In this document: piece by piece, positions 3,365 through 37,714 of the stretch
Position numbering within the stretch: position 1 is the first letter of the stretch
Layout: the number at the start of each line of letters is the position of its first letter
Origin: Cochliopodium minus
Taxonomy: Eukaryota; Discosea; Himatismenida; Cochliopodiidae
Direction of reading: 5' to 3'
DNA length: 41,932 nucleotides
Assembly (NCBI GenBank): GCA_024220525.1
Contig: JAMYWO010000201.1
Location: 1 to 41,932 of the forward strand
Translations under genes and position numbers: made by a program
The notes under the pieces: model-generated
Seen by the model: the letters and a program-made list of their open reading frames with translations, nothing else
What the model was told of the DNA's origin: nothing
Databases searched by the model: none

Positions 3365-6554
<3,190 letters not shown>

Positions 6555-10004: not shown

Positions 10005-10587
10005 ATGAGCAAAATGGATAATAATAAAAGAAAGTTTAACAATAATGAAGTAAGTACGGAAGAAGACGTGGTTGATCCATGGGGGTAAAAAAAAATACAT
10101 AAATACTACATTAATCAAATTTTAATCAAATTTTTTCATTTCAAAAAAGTTTTTTTTTTTTGACATCTAATTCATTTTTCAAAAAAAAAATATTTTAGAT
10201 TGTTCGTGCCACCATACATAATGAAACGTAAAAAAACCGAAATAAGAAAAAGAAGAAGAAAAGCAAGTGATCCTGTTGTAGAAGAAAAAAAAACATACAG
10301 GCAATATCCTGGAAAATTTTGTTATTATTGTGGAGCCACAGAAACTACAGAGTGGAGAAGAGGGCCTGATCGCAAAAATTAGTAAATTAATTTCTTTTTA
10401 TATAATTTATTTTTCAATCTCTTTATCAAAATTTCCCTTTTATTTCCCCAACTTAAAATTTCTTCACTTTGTTTGTAGTCTTTGTAATGCTTGTGGTTTA
10501 AGATTTAATGACAATAAGAAAAAAGAAGCTCTGTTAGCTCCGATTGAACCTCCAGGTAGAATATCGATTCAAGATCTTTTGAATTGA
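10005..10587 (+). CDS. Single-finger class IVb GATA protein (copy 1)
   Basis: Small DNA-binding regulator of 123 residues. Three exons: 10005-10084, 10199-10381 and 10479-10587. The finger is CYYCGATETTEWRRGPDRKN then YLCNACGLRF, i.e. CX2CX18CX2C, the 18-residue-loop class IVb form seen in plants and amoebozoans. An intron splits the finger just before LCNAC. A strongly basic segment (MKRKKTEIRKRRRKA) precedes the finger and could serve as a nuclear signal and as extra DNA contact. The protein ends in the motif RISIQDLLN. A paralogue with the same exon sizes (183 and 109 bases) lies inverted at 16417-16857. Function is probably transcriptional regulation at GATA sites; targets unknown. Confidence 0.92.
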
Positions 10588-10833
10588 AAATTTGATGTGT
10601 TTTTGTAATTAAAGCTATTTTTATTTGGAGCTTTTTTTTTTTGATCATAAATTTATTGTTTTTATTATATCTCTTCCGATAGAATGGATAATATAAAATA
10701 TGAAATATGAAAAAATAATGTATTTTATAACTATTTTACTTGAATTATATTTCTTCCTATTCTTTTATTTACAAACTTGATTTTTTTTTTGAATAAAATT
10801 TTAAAAATAAAAATAATGTGATTTGTTAAATAT

Positions 10834-13800
10834 TTATTTGAGGGATTCCAATAAAAGATTCAAAGTGTTGGGAGATCCTTCAAGAAAAGATTTTGCATCA
10901 TCCTTGTGAGTTAAAAGGAAATCCCTTATTTCAGAAACAGCCTTTTGATAATCTTTAGAGTTGTGATCATTTCCATTATCATTGTTGATGCTGTGTTCAT
11001 TAGATTTCTAAACAAATGAAAAAAAATTTAAATAAAAATAAATAAAAATAAAAATAATTCAATTTTTTTACACTTGCTTGAGATATAAATAGTATGAACA
11101 TTTTTTGATATTGATTTAAAAACTTGTTCATAAAGAATAAATTATCAGAAGAGTCAAAAAAGAGGCCATTAGATAACAACTGTAAAGTCTTGGTTATACA
11201 GGTGAGAATGTATCTTGCTTCATCTGTTATTTCGTTCTTGGAGAGGTTGGATTGGAATGGAGACATCAAAGCAGGGCAGATAAATCTCAAAAAGACAAAT
11301 CCTCCTACACTTTTATGCCCACTTCCGTGAAATTTCGAGATTACATTCAAATAAACACATTCACAAATTGATTTAAATTCACTTTAAAAATAAAAATAAA
11401 AAATTAAATAATTTATTTAGAAAAAAAAAGTTTAAAATTAATAATTAAAATTGAATTAAAATTGAAAATAAAAGAAAAATAAAAAATAAAAAATAAAAAA
11501 TAAAAAATAAAAAATAAAATAAAATAAAACAAAAAAGAAAATTAATAATTAAAATTGAATTAATATTATGCGATTACTTGGGAAAGAATGAAAAAGAACC
11601 GACAATGGATAGGAGAGTGCTTTGAGTAAAATCGAAGAGATCTTTCTGGTATACTTTGAGTTGTTTTTCATCCACTTCTTCAGGGTTGATGCTGAAATTG
11701 GGGTTAAGGAGAGAATACGAAAATATGTTTTCCAAAGGTTTTGTTAGAGAATTCACCAAAAATCTATTTTTCAAAAATATATTTTTTATTTTTTATTTTT
11801 TATTTTTTATTTTTTATTTTTTATTTTTTATTTTTTATTTTTTACTCTCTTCCTTTCTTTGTGGTGAATCTGTTGATTAATTTACAAGCAAAGCTGTTTC
11901 CTCTGAAAATAGTTCCTTCACTTTCGCAATTTGAAATTTCCTGTTTTACGAAATATTTCAACAAGCTGAAAAAAAAAATTGATTAATTTTTTTTTTGTTT
12001 TTTATTTAAAATTTTAAATTTTTGTTTTTATTTTTTATTTAATTTTTTACCATTTTACTTTTTATTATTTTATTTATTTATAATGATTTATTTATTTGAC
12101 ATATTTTTTTATTTTATCATTTTTTATTTTTATTTTATATGTACATTTTATTTTTGTTCAAATAAACTTATTTTTAATGATTTATTTATTTTTTTTTTCG
12201 TTTTTCGTTCTTATTTTATTTTTAAAAATTATTTTATTTTTTTATTTTTATTTTTACTCAATTGTTTGACCATGAAAAGAAAAAATGGTGATGATGTTTC
12301 CTGGAGTGGAATAGTCGGGATTGAGATCATAAACAGCGGACAAAGTGTGAAGAACCCTGTGGTCTCTCGCCAAAAGAAGTTGGTCCAACGTTTGAACGGG
12401 TTTTGAAGAATTTGTTTTTTGAGATGAAAAGTTATCATGATAACAATTTGAGCAAACAATGTTTCCTATACATAAAAAAAAAAAAATCAAAATATTTTGT
12501 TTTTTGAATGATATATTACTTATTTTTCTTTTTTTTGATTTGATTTTCTTTTTTTGATTTATTTCTTTTTTTGATTTGATTTTATTTTTTATATTTTGAA
12601 TTCATTTTTTATTTTTTTGACCTTAATTTTTTTTTTAATATTTTGATTTATTTTTTTTTTTGAAAATTTTCTTTTTTTGAGATTCTTTTCTTTTTTTTTA
12701 TTTTTTTTTTTGTTGATCTTTTTTTTTACCGTTTTGGAAAAAATATTGATCTTTGATTGGATCTTTGCACTGTTTGCAACAATAACACGCGACATGGAGA
12801 GTGTAATCACTCACATTTATTACATCATCTCCTGGAGTGATGGGATTCAAACAAAAATTACAACGTATTCCATATATTTTACCTTTTAAAAAAAAGAATA
12901 AAACAAAAATTTTTTTTAAAAAAAATTAATTTTAAAATGAAAAAATTTAATTAAAAAAAAAATATTAATAAAAAAATTTTTTTTAACAAATAAAATTTAA
13001 CAATAAATTAACAAAAAAATTGAAATTTTTTTTTTTTTTTCTAAATAAAAATTAAAAAAAAATAAAATTAATTAAGTGCAAATAAAAATTACAAAATTTT
13101 TTTTTGTTTTACAATAACATGATGTACAAACCAGACTTTCTTCTTGTTCTAGGAATCCATCGTCAATGTTGATGGCACAAGAAAAACACTTCATACATTT
13201 TTGATGAAAATACTTGTTAGATTGTTTGTAGTGAGGCTGTTTGGTAGTAAAAACTCTTCCGCAATTAGGATAACCACCTTTTTTCAAAAATTTATTTAAA
13301 ATCATTAAAAAAAGTTAATTTAAAAAAATTATAATATTAAAAAAAAATCAAAAATCAAAAAATCATAAAATAAAAAATAAAAGATATTTTTAAAAAAAAA
13401 AATCAAAAAAAAAAATAAAAAAAAAAATTGAAAAATTGAAAAATGTTTTCATTTTTATATTACACTGATTTTCTACAACAATTTTTTCCAATTCTAAAAC
13501 TCCATCCAATAATTTAGGAAGGGTATAAAGTTTCAAAATCTCCTCTTCAAAAAGAGAGTTTTCTTTTTTGGGGAAATTTAATTCTCCGAAAATGAATACA
13601 AAATTTTCCAAGAAAAAAGAAAAAACATCAGAAATGGATTTGTAATCTAAATTCCTGTTATTATTGTTATTTTTGTAAGATTGAGGGTAGAGAAAATGAG
13701 AAGAAAACAAAGAGGATATTTTTTGCGAAATTTCCGATTTGTTGTTTTCAGTTGCGTAGTAAAGTGCGAGGAACTCTACCATGTATCTAAGGAGGTTTTG

Positions 13801-15972
13801 GTTGACTAGAGGTAAAGTTTGAATGCAGACTTCTTTAACATATTTTATTTTTCCTTCTTTGGATCTAATCAAAATTAAAAAAATTAAAAAATTAAAAAAT
13901 AAAAAATAATAAATGATTAAAATTAAAACAAAAATAAAATAAAGAAATAAAAAAATGAAATAAAAAATAAAAAATAAAATAATTATAAAAAATTTGTTAG
14001 ATAAAAAAAACAATAACATTACGTATTCTCAGTAAAAGTTTCTCTTGATATTTCAATGAAATTGGGAAAAAATATGAAGGGAATAAGAGGCTCAGGAAGT
14101 TCCTCAAAAAACTTGACAACGACAAACAATAATGATTTTTTGTTCCACTCATTGGGAATGATGACACCCCTTCTATCCAAAATTCCGTACAATTTTTGGC
14201 ACTCGATCTCCAAGTTTTTTTTAGAAATGGAGCCAAACAAAGAGATGTTGAGATGGTTTTTTTTGAGATATTCAATGATATGGTAGATTGGTGTTGGTAT
14301 TCCAAACTTCTCCGCGATTTCTGTTTCTGTTTGTTTTTTTAGGAGCTCGGTGAGGGGAATTCCGAAAAACTTCTTCTTCATCCATCTTTGTTTGTAGCTC
14401 TCTAGGTTCACCTTCAAAACAGAAAGGGATTTTTGTTCTTTGTCTTGTGTGGTTGCGTAAATGGGCTCTTTGTTATCTTTTATAATCATTTTTATACAAT
14501 TTGTAAAAATGGAATGGTTACTACAATATAAGAATTTTAATAATTAAAAACACTAAAAAAATATTCTTTTTGAAATAAAAATTTACTTGATTTCTTCAAC
14601 CTGCATTTCGGTCCAATTCCACATAGAATGGAATGTCAATTTTTCTTTCTTGTTCAATGCTAAAAGACCAATATCGCTAAAAGCAATCAAACAAGCAGGA
14701 GAAGATTTTTTAGAATCTCCGAAACAAACCAAACATTCTATTTTTTGCAAAATGTTTCTTAGAGGAACAGCCAAATCTTCAGGACATCCCAATAAACTGT
14801 TTTTTTGGAGCTGTTGTATGGATGTTAAGGGGATATTGTCACTTGCTTTCGTTTTTATTTCCATGAGCTTTCTTTGAGCTTGTTGGATGTAGTTTTTTGA
14901 ATTTTCGTTATTTTCTATTTTGAGGAGTTCTCCTAGCTCTGTTTCTAGCATTACTATTCTGTTGAATGGAGAATGAATTAGATCTTCAAACGGAATATCT
15001 TTTGCATATTTGCATGAATCTTTAACGCTCTTTATTTAATACATAAAATTAATTTATTTTGGAAAATTTTTTTTTTTAAAGAAATTTTATTTGTGATTTA
15101 CATTTATGAATTGTTGTAACTTTGGTTTTGTTTCAATCAGTGATATATTTTCTTTTATCAATTCCCAATTCGATAGAAATGGTGAATACAAATTCATGTA
15201 GTTTGATAATGAGAAGAAATATCTTGCCAACAAGAAGAAAGAATTGCATTTTATGAATCCATAAATTTCTCTCAAAATTTGTGTATGTAATGCTGAAATA
15301 ATTAAAAGAAAAATAATTCAATTTTGAATTTCTTTTATATTTTTTTTTTTATACCTTTTATTTCTTCAATATTTGAAAACAATATTAAAAGGAATTCTCT
15401 ATCTAAACCCTTTAATAATGATTTTGATGATTTTGATGAAGATTCCAATGGTTTTTTGTAAGAATATAAAAGAGATGCCAATTTATTTAAATATTTGTTT
15501 TCATTATCTAAAAATTTCAACAACCATTCTTCCTTTAGAATATCTTCTTTGCTTTTGGGGATTTGAAGAGTATTACCTCTTGTGAGCTAAAAATCAATAA
15601 ATTTTTTGGTGACAATTTTTATTTGGTGGGGAATTAATTAATATTCTTTACCTTGTTGATGATATTCTCAGTTTTACTTGTATTTGCGATATCCATGATT
15701 GTATTTCTTCTTGATCCATCAACAGATTTTTTATAATCATTTTTTTCGATTGAATTGTTTCTTGAATGTGATTTCTCTATTTTCTCAGGTGAATTGATTG
15801 AACCCTTTCTTTTGATATCAATGATAGGGGATGAAGTATTTGCTTTTTCTTTGATATAAACTATTATTTCTTTGATATCTTTTTCCAAAAATCCCATTTT
15901 TGATAAATGAACCTCAATTGCTGAGATATGCAACTTATATTTCAACTCTATATTTTCCATATTTTTCAACAA
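10834..15972 (-). CDS. Multidomain RhoGEF-PH-RhoGAP-LIM-LIM-RasGAP regulator
   Basis: Thirteen exons: 15972-15652, 15586-15355, 15292-15102, 15029-14587, 14520-14023, 13864-13464, 13277-13113, 12882-12730, 12465-12258, 11965-11846, 11763-11578, 11381-11072 and 11007-10834. Every phase agrees, giving 1133 residues. Order: a linker; a DH-like domain (about 118-290; NENKYLNKLASLLYSYKKPL, LFSNIEEIKALH, PFNRIVMLETELGELL); a PH-like domain (about 330-450) ending in ESYKQRW; RhoGAP (about 453-690; FGIPLTELLKK, FFEELPEPLIPF, LPLVNQNLLRYM); two LIM modules (about 693-830; FHQKCMKCFSC, CNFCLNPITPGDD, CYCCKQC); RasGAP (about 830-1080) with the arginine loop GTIFRGNSFACKL and FVFLRFICPALMSP. The RasGAP looks catalytically competent, whereas the RhoGAP lacks its arginine finger. 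The protein would link Rho activation, Ras shut-off and LIM-mediated targeting, probably at the actin cortex (inference). Confidence 0.88.
11476..11520. repeat. (TAAAAAA)n array in intron 11 of the Rho/Ras regulator
   Basis: About six copies of a 7-base unit on the plus strand. It is complementary to the array at 11780-11843 and lies on the other side of exon 11. Confidence 0.85.
11780..11843. repeat. (ATTTTTT)n array in intron 10 of the Rho/Ras regulator
   Basis: About nine copies of the 7-base unit ATTTTTT, the reverse complement of the unit at 11476-11520. In the minus-strand pre-mRNA the two arrays flank exon 11 and could pair. Confidence 0.85.
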
Positions 15973-16416
15973 GGAATAATTTTTTTTTTTTTTTATATAT
16001 CCTCACTTTAATTCAAAAAAAAAAAAAAAAATTCCACCCAACTTTAGAGGAGATATAATCATTTAGAAAGTTTTGATAATTGATAAATCTTTTGATATCT
16101 AAATCCTTTCTTTTTGAAATGGAAATATCCACCTTTTGGGACGAAATCTTTTTAGAATTTCAGCTTTGGCAATATAAGAAAGTAAAGATCAGATCTTTCA
16201 AAAATCCTCAATAAATAAATCTTTTTTTTCACTTATAAATAAATCATTTTTATTTTATTTGTTCCGATAGTGTTTAAAAAAATTAATTATCCAGCAAGTT
16301 AAATTATTTTTGATTGATCTCTTTTTTTTCTTTGTCTGAATAAATCTTTGTTCGTAAAATTTCCAACAAATTCGCAATAATATACAAAATTATATATAAT
16401 TTTAGATAACTATATA
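15973..16416. other. Intergenic spacer, Rho/Ras regulator 5' side
   Basis: Holds the promoter of the multidomain regulator and the 3' end of the second GATA gene. It contains a long poly-A/T run near 15980-16032 and the TTCCGATA octamer at 16262-16269. No gene is visible. Confidence 0.5.
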
Positions 16417-36231: not shown

Positions 36232-37714
36232 TTTCATTTATTTTTTATTTTTTTATTTTTATTTTTATTTTTAATGATTTTTTCATTATTTTTTTTTTTT
36301 TTTGATAAAAGATGTTACCTTGTAAAGTTTGCAAAAACCCCGTTTCCATCTTTGACGACAACGCCTACATCTGCCACTCCTGCAACAAAAAATACAAAAG
36401 GAACAATCCAAAACACACCACCTCCACAAACAGCCCCTTGATCAGCACCCTCAGCAACAGCAGTAACATCAGCAGTAACATCAATAATAATAGCATCAGT
36501 CATATTAGCAGCAATATTAATCATAATCCTCCCAAATCCAACTTGGAGGTGAAATCCGATGAAAGATTGCCTCCTTGCAAAGTATGTAAGAATCCCGTGT
36601 CGCATTTCGACGAGAATGCCTATATCTGCCACACCTGCAGCAAAAAATACAAGAAGCCCTCCTCCAGAATCTATCCTTCGCCCATCTCATCCAACAACAC
36701 ATCTAATAATAACACTCCCTCATCCTCCAACAACAATAATAATAATAATAATATTAATAATTCCTTATCATCATCATCTAATAATATCTCATCTAATAAT
36801 AGCTCATCTAATAATGATAATAATAATAATACATCTCATATCAATAATAATAATAATAATAATGAAGATATAATTAATACTAAAACCCCTTCCACTAATA
36901 TCAATAATATCAATAATAATACCCAGAATACAAATCATGCTTCATCGTCGCAAGATCCATCTGTGGGCCCGATCCTCAAATCGCCCAATCATCATATCAG
37001 CAGCAACAACACCCCAACCCATTCCCACTCCTCCCCCAATCTCATCAATCATCAGAAACACTCCTCCGTCATCAGCCCCAACAAAAGTGCCGTCAGCAAC
37101 AACAACGTCAACAATAACAGTAACAGTAACACTAACAGTAACAACACTAACAGTAACAAGCCTTCTTTGAATAACAACAATACTGATGAGAACAACAGAA
37201 TGAAGCGAACTGACGATGACAAAATCCCTCCTAAACCCGTTTTGTCCAGTTCTACGGGTTCTTTGGAGAAAGAAGACCCTAGTAATTTTCTTTTTTTTTT
37301 TTTCAATATTTAATTAATTCATTTAAAAATTTGTTTGTTTGTTTTCATGAAAATTCATTTCTTATTTTTATATTCATTTGATTAAATTGATGAAATAATT
37401 AAAAAACATAAAACATAAAATTAAAATGATTGATTTTATTTATTTTTCAAGTTTTTTATTTAATTTTGATTTAATTTAATTTATTTTTTATTTTTATTTT
37501 TTAATTTCTTTTTAATTCATAATTTTATTCATTTTTTATTTTTTTTTTTCAGAAAAAATGTTCTCTTCAAATATGATGGCACGAATGGTGTTCTACCAAA
37601 AGAGCAAATCCAAAAAGTCCGACGAAAAGTGGATACCCGTAATTGAGGATGTTTCTTACATCAACACTCCCCAAACCTTGGAAGCCAGAAATCAGCTCGA
37701 ACAAATCATTTTGG
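34514..37714 (+). CDS. Protein with five CX2CX13CX2C zinc fingers; both ends missing
   Basis: I do not recognise the family. Exons 34514-34620, 34726-34895, 35261-35503, 35851-36041, 36312-37281 and 37553-37714 join in phase. They carry five fingers of spacing CX2CX13CX2C. The first, CSKCNETV to VCLKC, is diverged. The other four are near-identical, with core CKNPVS, AYICH and KKYK. Fingers 2, 3 and 4 sit in separate exons at the same relative place, pointing to exon duplication. Linkers are Pro/Ser-rich, and finger 5 is followed by a long Asn/Ser/His-rich stretch. The last exon (MVFYQKSKSKKSDEKW, then NTPQTLEARNQLEQIILG) looks like the start of a folded domain, and the gene is cut by the N at 37900. 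The best first acceptor (34514) is phase 0, whereas the ATPase exon before it ends in phase 1, so these are probably separate genes. Confidence 0.65.
36164..36229. repeat. (ATTTTT)n microsatellite in a zinc-finger gene intron
   Basis: Same hexamer unit as at 34411-34480, in the intron before the fourth finger exon. About 11 copies. It shows that the hexamer is repeated in this locus, which would favour recombination or misassembly between copies. Confidence 0.85.

Follow-up and report, generated by a model that had tools for sequence, protein, structure and literature searches.

RGBARG of Dictyostelium discoideum (gene rgbA, DDB_G0269934) carries RhoGEF and RasGAP domains together with RCC1 and BAR domains in one 225 kDa chain and, in the sections of the paper cited here, is suggested to spread Rac activity at the rim of the cup and to restrain Ras, with the two effects at neighboring places (PMC7416115). 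Deletion of its RhoGEF or BAR domain makes the protein cytosolic, its RasGAP domain restricts the protein to the border of the interior of the cup, and its guanine nucleotide exchange factor (GEF) activity is stated to be unclear (PMC7416115). Among the Dictyostelium RasGAPs involved in macropinosome formation, it is described there as the only one with an additional RhoGEF domain (PMC7416115). In human BCR and ABR, a DH-PH module is followed by a RhoGAP domain, and a single BCR chain has both GEF and GTPase-activating protein (GAP) activity, according to the part of the source used here (PMC6505627). Here we describe a gene of Cochliopodium minus on the minus strand of contig JAMYWO010000201.1 (C201), the product of which contains DH (RhoGEF), PH, RhoGAP, two LIM and RasGAP domains. 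Judged from its sequence, it is best explained, with a probability of roughly 0.6, as a cortical GTPase coupler encoded by one gene, which would combine a Rac/Rho-GEF and a RasGAP with a dead RhoGAP. The window is this whole contig (41,932 nt; G+C content of 20-31% in 2 kb steps), and scans of the organism's own genome covered the 44.65 Mb assembly of 598 contigs.

We identified 13 exons that close in phase between an ATG at 15960 and a stop codon at 10834 and encode 1129 amino acids (exons 1-4 at 15960-15652, 15586-15355, 15292-15102 and 15029-14587; exons 5-8 at 14520-14023, 13864-13464, 13277-13113 and 12882-12730; exons 9-13 at 12465-12258, 11965-11846, 11763-11578, 11381-11072 and 11007-10834). 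All 12 introns are of the GT-AG type, are 62-292 nt long and have A+T contents of 78-96%, as compared to 62-75% in exons 1-12. An in-frame TTG lies four codons upstream of the ATG, followed further upstream by a TGA that closes the frame. A preliminary description of this DNA had also joined 13 in-phase exons into one protein, but of 1133 amino acids and ending at 15972. These values fit a start at the TTG, so the exon set was presumably the same; the start at the ATG gives 1129 amino acids and 15960.

A simple gene finder of our own design, the training set of which consisted of long open reading frames (ORFs) and the introns in the hand-made C201 model, returned exactly the 13 hand-model exons when gene starts were strictly penalized. 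Given that the hand-model introns were used in training, this agreement is not independent of the hand model. Among 100 dinucleotide shuffles of 10500-16300, the longest prediction was 482 letters (median 191), and the longest on the opposite strand of this region was 359 letters (stop sign counted in both cases).

The order of domains in the C201 protein is a short N-terminal element, DH, PH, RhoGAP, LIM, LIM and an NF1-like RasGAP. The C-terminal RasGAP (11078..12391, residues ~823-1070) was recognized by Pfam (PF00616, 82.6 bits against a curated cut-off of 28.3), and its best match among solved structures is neurofibromin (4.5e-21). The FRGNS and FLR...PA motifs of RasGAP domains provide the arginine finger and the FLR...PA arginine, respectively. 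Both arginines are kept: the finger is residue 888 (IFRGNS from residue 886), FLRFICPA begins at residue 999, and these segments align with FRGNS and FLRFINPA of neurofibromin. Two stretches match Pfam LIM (PF00412, 57.6 bits, over the cut-off). LIM 1 (13113..13464, residues 692-745) and LIM 2 (12428..12862, residues 754-810, exons 8-9) each have eight zinc ligands, although the first knuckle of LIM 1 is CX4C instead of CX2C. The RhoGAP domain (13558..14369, residues ~443-660, exons 5-6) was identified over residues 467-618 (PF00620, 44.2 bits against a curated cut-off of 24.5); it has no arginine finger.

The DH domain (14829..15523, residues ~125-311, exons 2-4) was identified using phmmer against solved structures (P-Rex1 at 1.4e-5, then Vav and Dbs) and by similarity to a relative encoded on contig C174 (tblastn 1.4e-20 over this stretch), whose own DH matches PF00621 with 84.2 bits. 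The glutamate of the first conserved block and the helix of the third block have a functional role in DH domains. Both are kept in the alignment (for the former, ENKY in C201 and ERDY in P-Rex1). Directly behind the DH is a PH domain (14385..14786, residues ~326-437, exons 4-5), for which a profile of five relatives matches the PH domains of ARHGEF18, SOS1, FARP2 and Vav (best 1.9e-6). The N-terminal element (15826..15960, residues ~1-45) aligns also in C174 and in the relatives on contigs C72, C239 and C37, in a weak five-row alignment that carries no E-value and in which the starts of C72 and C37 were picked by hand. NCBIfam returned no family for the C201 protein, as expected from models of prokaryotes. 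Thus the RhoGEF, PH, RhoGAP, two LIM and RasGAP domains that had been named for this locus were recovered in that order by Pfam, phmmer, the family profile and comparison to C174.

Very probably, the C201 locus is one gene with all six domains. Three domain boundaries fall inside single exons: DH to PH in exon 4 (14587..15029), PH to RhoGAP in exon 5 (14023..14520) and LIM 2 to RasGAP in exon 9 (12258..12465). It is very improbable that a wrong model merged two or more adjacent genes, because parts of two neighboring domains lie within each of these exons. Such a merger could find room in the introns, which reach 292 nt as compared to a gap of 246 nt to the next gene at the 3' end, and the gene finder with a lax penalty on starts placed a break after exon 4. 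However, the first cysteine codon of LIM 1 is split (T|GT) across intron 6 and is completed by joining exons 6 and 7, and the domain order is identical in C174. No single exon of C201 spans the join from RhoGAP to LIM 1. In C37 (L038 4573-3800), the second half of RhoGAP, LIM 1 and the first cysteine of LIM 2 share a single run of 258 codons without a stop, within which the gene finder places an in-frame intron of 54 nt. This single ORF argues against a gene break between RhoGAP and LIM, and homology to C37 supports continuity of the two in C201. Separate genes were rejected on the grounds of exons 4, 5 and 9, the C37 ORF and the order in C174, in agreement with the single gene proposed in the preliminary description.

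The genome is rich in matches to the individual domains: we found, exon by exon, at least 69 RasGAP, 128 RhoGAP, 163 RhoGEF and 91 LIM matches. These counts are lower bounds (the scan missed the window's own RhoGAP). In the match lists, a LIM match comes behind RhoGAP on the same strand in C174, C72, C239 and C82, and C37 was recognized through its DH and LIM matches. Seven contigs in the lists have both LIM and RasGAP matches, and these are close together on one strand only in C201 and C174. The C174 gene is predicted as a single gene of 16 exons (1207 amino acids) with the six domains in the same order as in C201 (Pfam RhoGEF 84.2, RhoGAP 67.8, LIM 45.5 and RasGAP 102 bits; PH is below threshold). 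The combination is therefore not the one-off that had been supposed, and a unique fusion in C201 was rejected because C174 carries the whole set. Four further relatives have parts of it. We found no RasGAP in C72, C239, C37 and C82; the first three have DH, RhoGAP and LIM-type stretches, although the C37 piece gives no PF00412 row and its LIM match comes from the LIM scan of the genome.

Identity between C201 and C174 is just 25 to 42% in the longer matching pieces, and thus the two are old paralogues rather than alleles. They group as sisters in a core tree of seven rows (support 100/99) and in one of 24 RasGAP domains (100/96). The latter was built from the domains of fetched loci (30 of the 69 matches plus later loci, with C331 added by hand) after exclusion of seven locus repeats, one neighboring copy in C366 and four rows with fewer than 150 profile positions. 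In the simplest history, RasGAP would have joined a DH-PH-RhoGAP-LIM-LIM protein once, and a later duplication would have given rise to C201 and C174.

RhoGEF and RasGAP also occur together outside of this family. Among five such loci checked, one predicted protein holds both domains in C331 (L049 9622-6421, minus strand) and in C294 (L040 5122-2519, minus strand). The C331 protein, of 939 amino acids, combines RhoGEF with a weak PH-like stretch and with RasGAP (100.7 and 52.1 bits). In the C294 protein, of 683 amino acids, RasGAP comes first, ahead of RhoGEF and a PH-like stretch that is again weak (72.4 and 52 bits). Neither predicted protein has a RhoGAP or LIM row in Pfam. The RasGAP of C294 groups elsewhere in the RasGAP tree (96/91), and that of C331 is placed without resolution. 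In C2, C6 and C111 the two domains are seemingly in separate predicted genes, as judged by eye. As a separate observation, inspection of the genome match lists by eye gave 11 places where a RhoGAP match lies no more than about 3 kb behind a DH match on one strand (C26, C82 near 56 kb, C32, C17, C174, C113, C161, C348, C16, C72 and C239). Dual RhoGEF-RhoGAP genes seem to be common in this genome.

The RhoGAP domain of C201 was compared to p50RhoGAP, using residue names as in PMC8305018 and reading the equivalents by eye. At the position of the arginine finger (Arg282), C201 has G when aligned to p50RhoGAP and in the family alignment, and S when aligned to ARHGAP15 and p190. There is no arginine anywhere in the finger segment, NHLNISLFGSISKKN. 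In the alignment, C201 has E, K, S and S in place of R323, N391, V394 and P398 of p50RhoGAP, respectively, and the equivalent of Lys319 is kept. In the passages drawn upon here, RhoGAPs without a finger are classed as catalytically inactive, p85 is described as lacking most contacts such as R323, N391, V394 and P398, and the RhoGAP-like domain of OCRL1, also without a finger, nevertheless binds Rac1-GTP (PMC8305018). Given the loss of the finger arginine and of these four equivalents, the C201 RhoGAP is probably catalytically dead and p85-like. It is unlikely to act as a GAP on Rho, and binding of a Rho GTPase, as envisaged in the preliminary description, is doubtful despite the retained lysine. 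An active RhoGAP was rejected as an explanation due to the loss of the finger and four further contacts. The loss of the RhoGAP finger, while the RasGAP finger and FLR..PA stay, supports the coupler reading.

Within the family, as read by eye, the finger is kept in C239 and C82 (GIFRISG) and replaced by I in C174, Q in C72 and N in C37. Thus it is kept in two of six members and lost in four (the window gene, L033, L034 and L038), with differing replacement residues. As finger-bearing and finger-less copies share one genome, the role of a dead RhoGAP beside a GEF can be compared among them. The finger arginines of C239 and C82, the RhoGAP score above the Pfam cut-off, the kept Lys319 equivalent and the precedent of GEF and GAP activity in one BCR chain (PMC6505627) would suit a protein that works like BCR, in which GEF and RhoGAP both act on Rho proteins and a RasGAP has been added. 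We consider this improbable for C201, as its finger segment is devoid of arginine, the four further contact residues are changed to E, K, S and S, and finger-less RhoGAPs are termed catalytically inactive in the source cited above (PMC8305018).

In the coupler reading, DH-PH would load GTP onto a Rac/Rho GTPase, and the C-terminal NF1-like RasGAP would switch Ras off at the same spot. The two LIM domains would anchor the protein, probably to actin or adhesion partners. The RhoGAP between PH and LIM would be a non-catalytic spacer or regulator, and most likely a structural or regulatory leftover. Because it has lost the catalytic arginine and most of the named GTPase contacts, it should not undo the action of the GEF. 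The Rho-on/Ras-off logic suggested earlier for this locus is thus plausible. Recasting the RhoGAP as a non-catalytic part of the RhoGEF, with a RasGAP behind the LIM domains, leads to a more tentative and somewhat doubtful proposal: these proteins might form a conserved family of built-in Rac-on/Ras-off switches that arose independently of RGBARG, in which the dead RhoGAP would hold the GEF off, or read Rac-GTP, until LIM docking.

Several observations weigh against the coupler reading or the history given above. In addition to the break made at the lax setting of the gene finder, neither Pfam RhoGEF (PF00621) nor Pfam PH gave a row for the C201 protein up to E 10, a search in which HMMER filters drop weak matches. 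The branch leading to C201 is longer than any other in the core tree (1.93 changes per column), which could reflect relaxed selection. We did not find a DH in C82 (L036), though the end of PH, RhoGAP and the LIM domains are present. The models of C72 and C37 end in implausible tails past the LIM region, and so the finding of no RasGAP in these two reflects missing matches. The core tree lacks a supported root (65/52), and thus the relatives may instead have lost RasGAP.

The weak conservation of the DH (no PF00621 row, best phmmer match 1.4e-5) bears also on the possibility that this domain is inactive too and merely binds a Rac-type GTPase so as to position the RasGAP, making the protein a scaffold with a RasGAP. 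The adjacent RhoGAP has already decayed, and RGBARG is reported to need its RhoGEF domain for membrane localization, with exchange activity described as unclear (PMC7416115). However, C201 keeps the first-block glutamate (ENKY, compared to ERDY) and the third-block helix, and the DH of C174 scores 84.2 bits. We therefore regard such a scaffold as fairly unlikely and prefer the coupler reading, in which the DH would be an active GEF.

Elsewhere in the window, two related short GATA zinc-finger genes in opposite orientations flank the C201 gene (10005-10587 on the plus strand and ~16857-16417 on the minus strand). The first of these matches PF00320 (44.7 bits), and the pair is 68% identical at the DNA level over a 389-nt piece. 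Three copies of the word TTCCGATA are found on the plus strand (9691, 10674 and 16262), all in the stretch around the C201 gene, and the reverse complement of this word is absent from the window; 0.65 occurrences per strand are expected from base composition. A plus-strand ORF at 3804-5585 encodes the N-terminal domain of an arginine-tRNA-protein transferase (ATE_N, 32 bits) and has long Asn-rich stretches. Another, at 36309-37310, encodes repeated short zinc-ribbon-like units (DUF4428, 36.4 bits). The gene finder merged it with a gene that we take to be P4-ATPase-like; these are probably two genes.

Several of the combinations found in C201 have precedents. LIM and RhoGAP domains share one chain in fungal Rga1/Lrg1 and other LIM-RhoGAP proteins, in which LIM precedes RhoGAP and which, to our knowledge, have no DH-PH and no RasGAP. 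Neurofibromin has the RasGAP closest to that of C201, with FRGNS shared; we know of no RhoGEF, RhoGAP or LIM in NF1. The GAP of BCR and ABR acts on Rac and Cdc42, and BCR has an N-terminal coiled coil and a kinase region. As far as we know, neither protein has LIM or RasGAP. BCR and ABR share with C201 the succession of DH-PH and RhoGAP (PMC6505627), and differ in that the C201 RhoGAP, without its finger, is not catalytically complete. In having a RhoGAP-like domain without GAP activity, which in C201 is predicted from sequence alone, the protein resembles p85 and OCRL1 as these are described in the cited part of PMC8305018, although the protein context around the domain is different. Within the genome, C331 and C294 also combine RhoGEF, a PH-like stretch and RasGAP in one predicted chain, but differ from C201 in having no RhoGAP or LIM row.

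Thus RhoGEF with RasGAP (as in RGBARG, where the pair has been studied) and DH-PH with RhoGAP are known combinations. The complete set, LIM and RasGAP included, was not encountered in a single chain in the literature searched: among the titles and abstract openings covered, we found no chain with RhoGEF, RhoGAP, LIM and RasGAP (this concerns the literature, and is no claim on eukaryotic protein databases or proteomes).

How Rac-driven protrusion is confined to the margin of a quiet area in which Ras is active is described as a major unanswered question (PMC7416115). A second architecture that pairs RhoGEF and RasGAP, built from other modules, would suggest a repeated solution. Like RGBARG, the C201 protein joins RhoGEF and RasGAP in one chain. 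Unlike RGBARG, for which neither LIM nor RhoGAP is named in the sections cited (PMC7416115), it has PH, RhoGAP and LIM domains. Membership in RGBARG was rejected since the C201 protein gives no Pfam row for RCC1 or BAR up to E 10. By analogy, the best reading is that the C201 protein works like RGBARG without being one.

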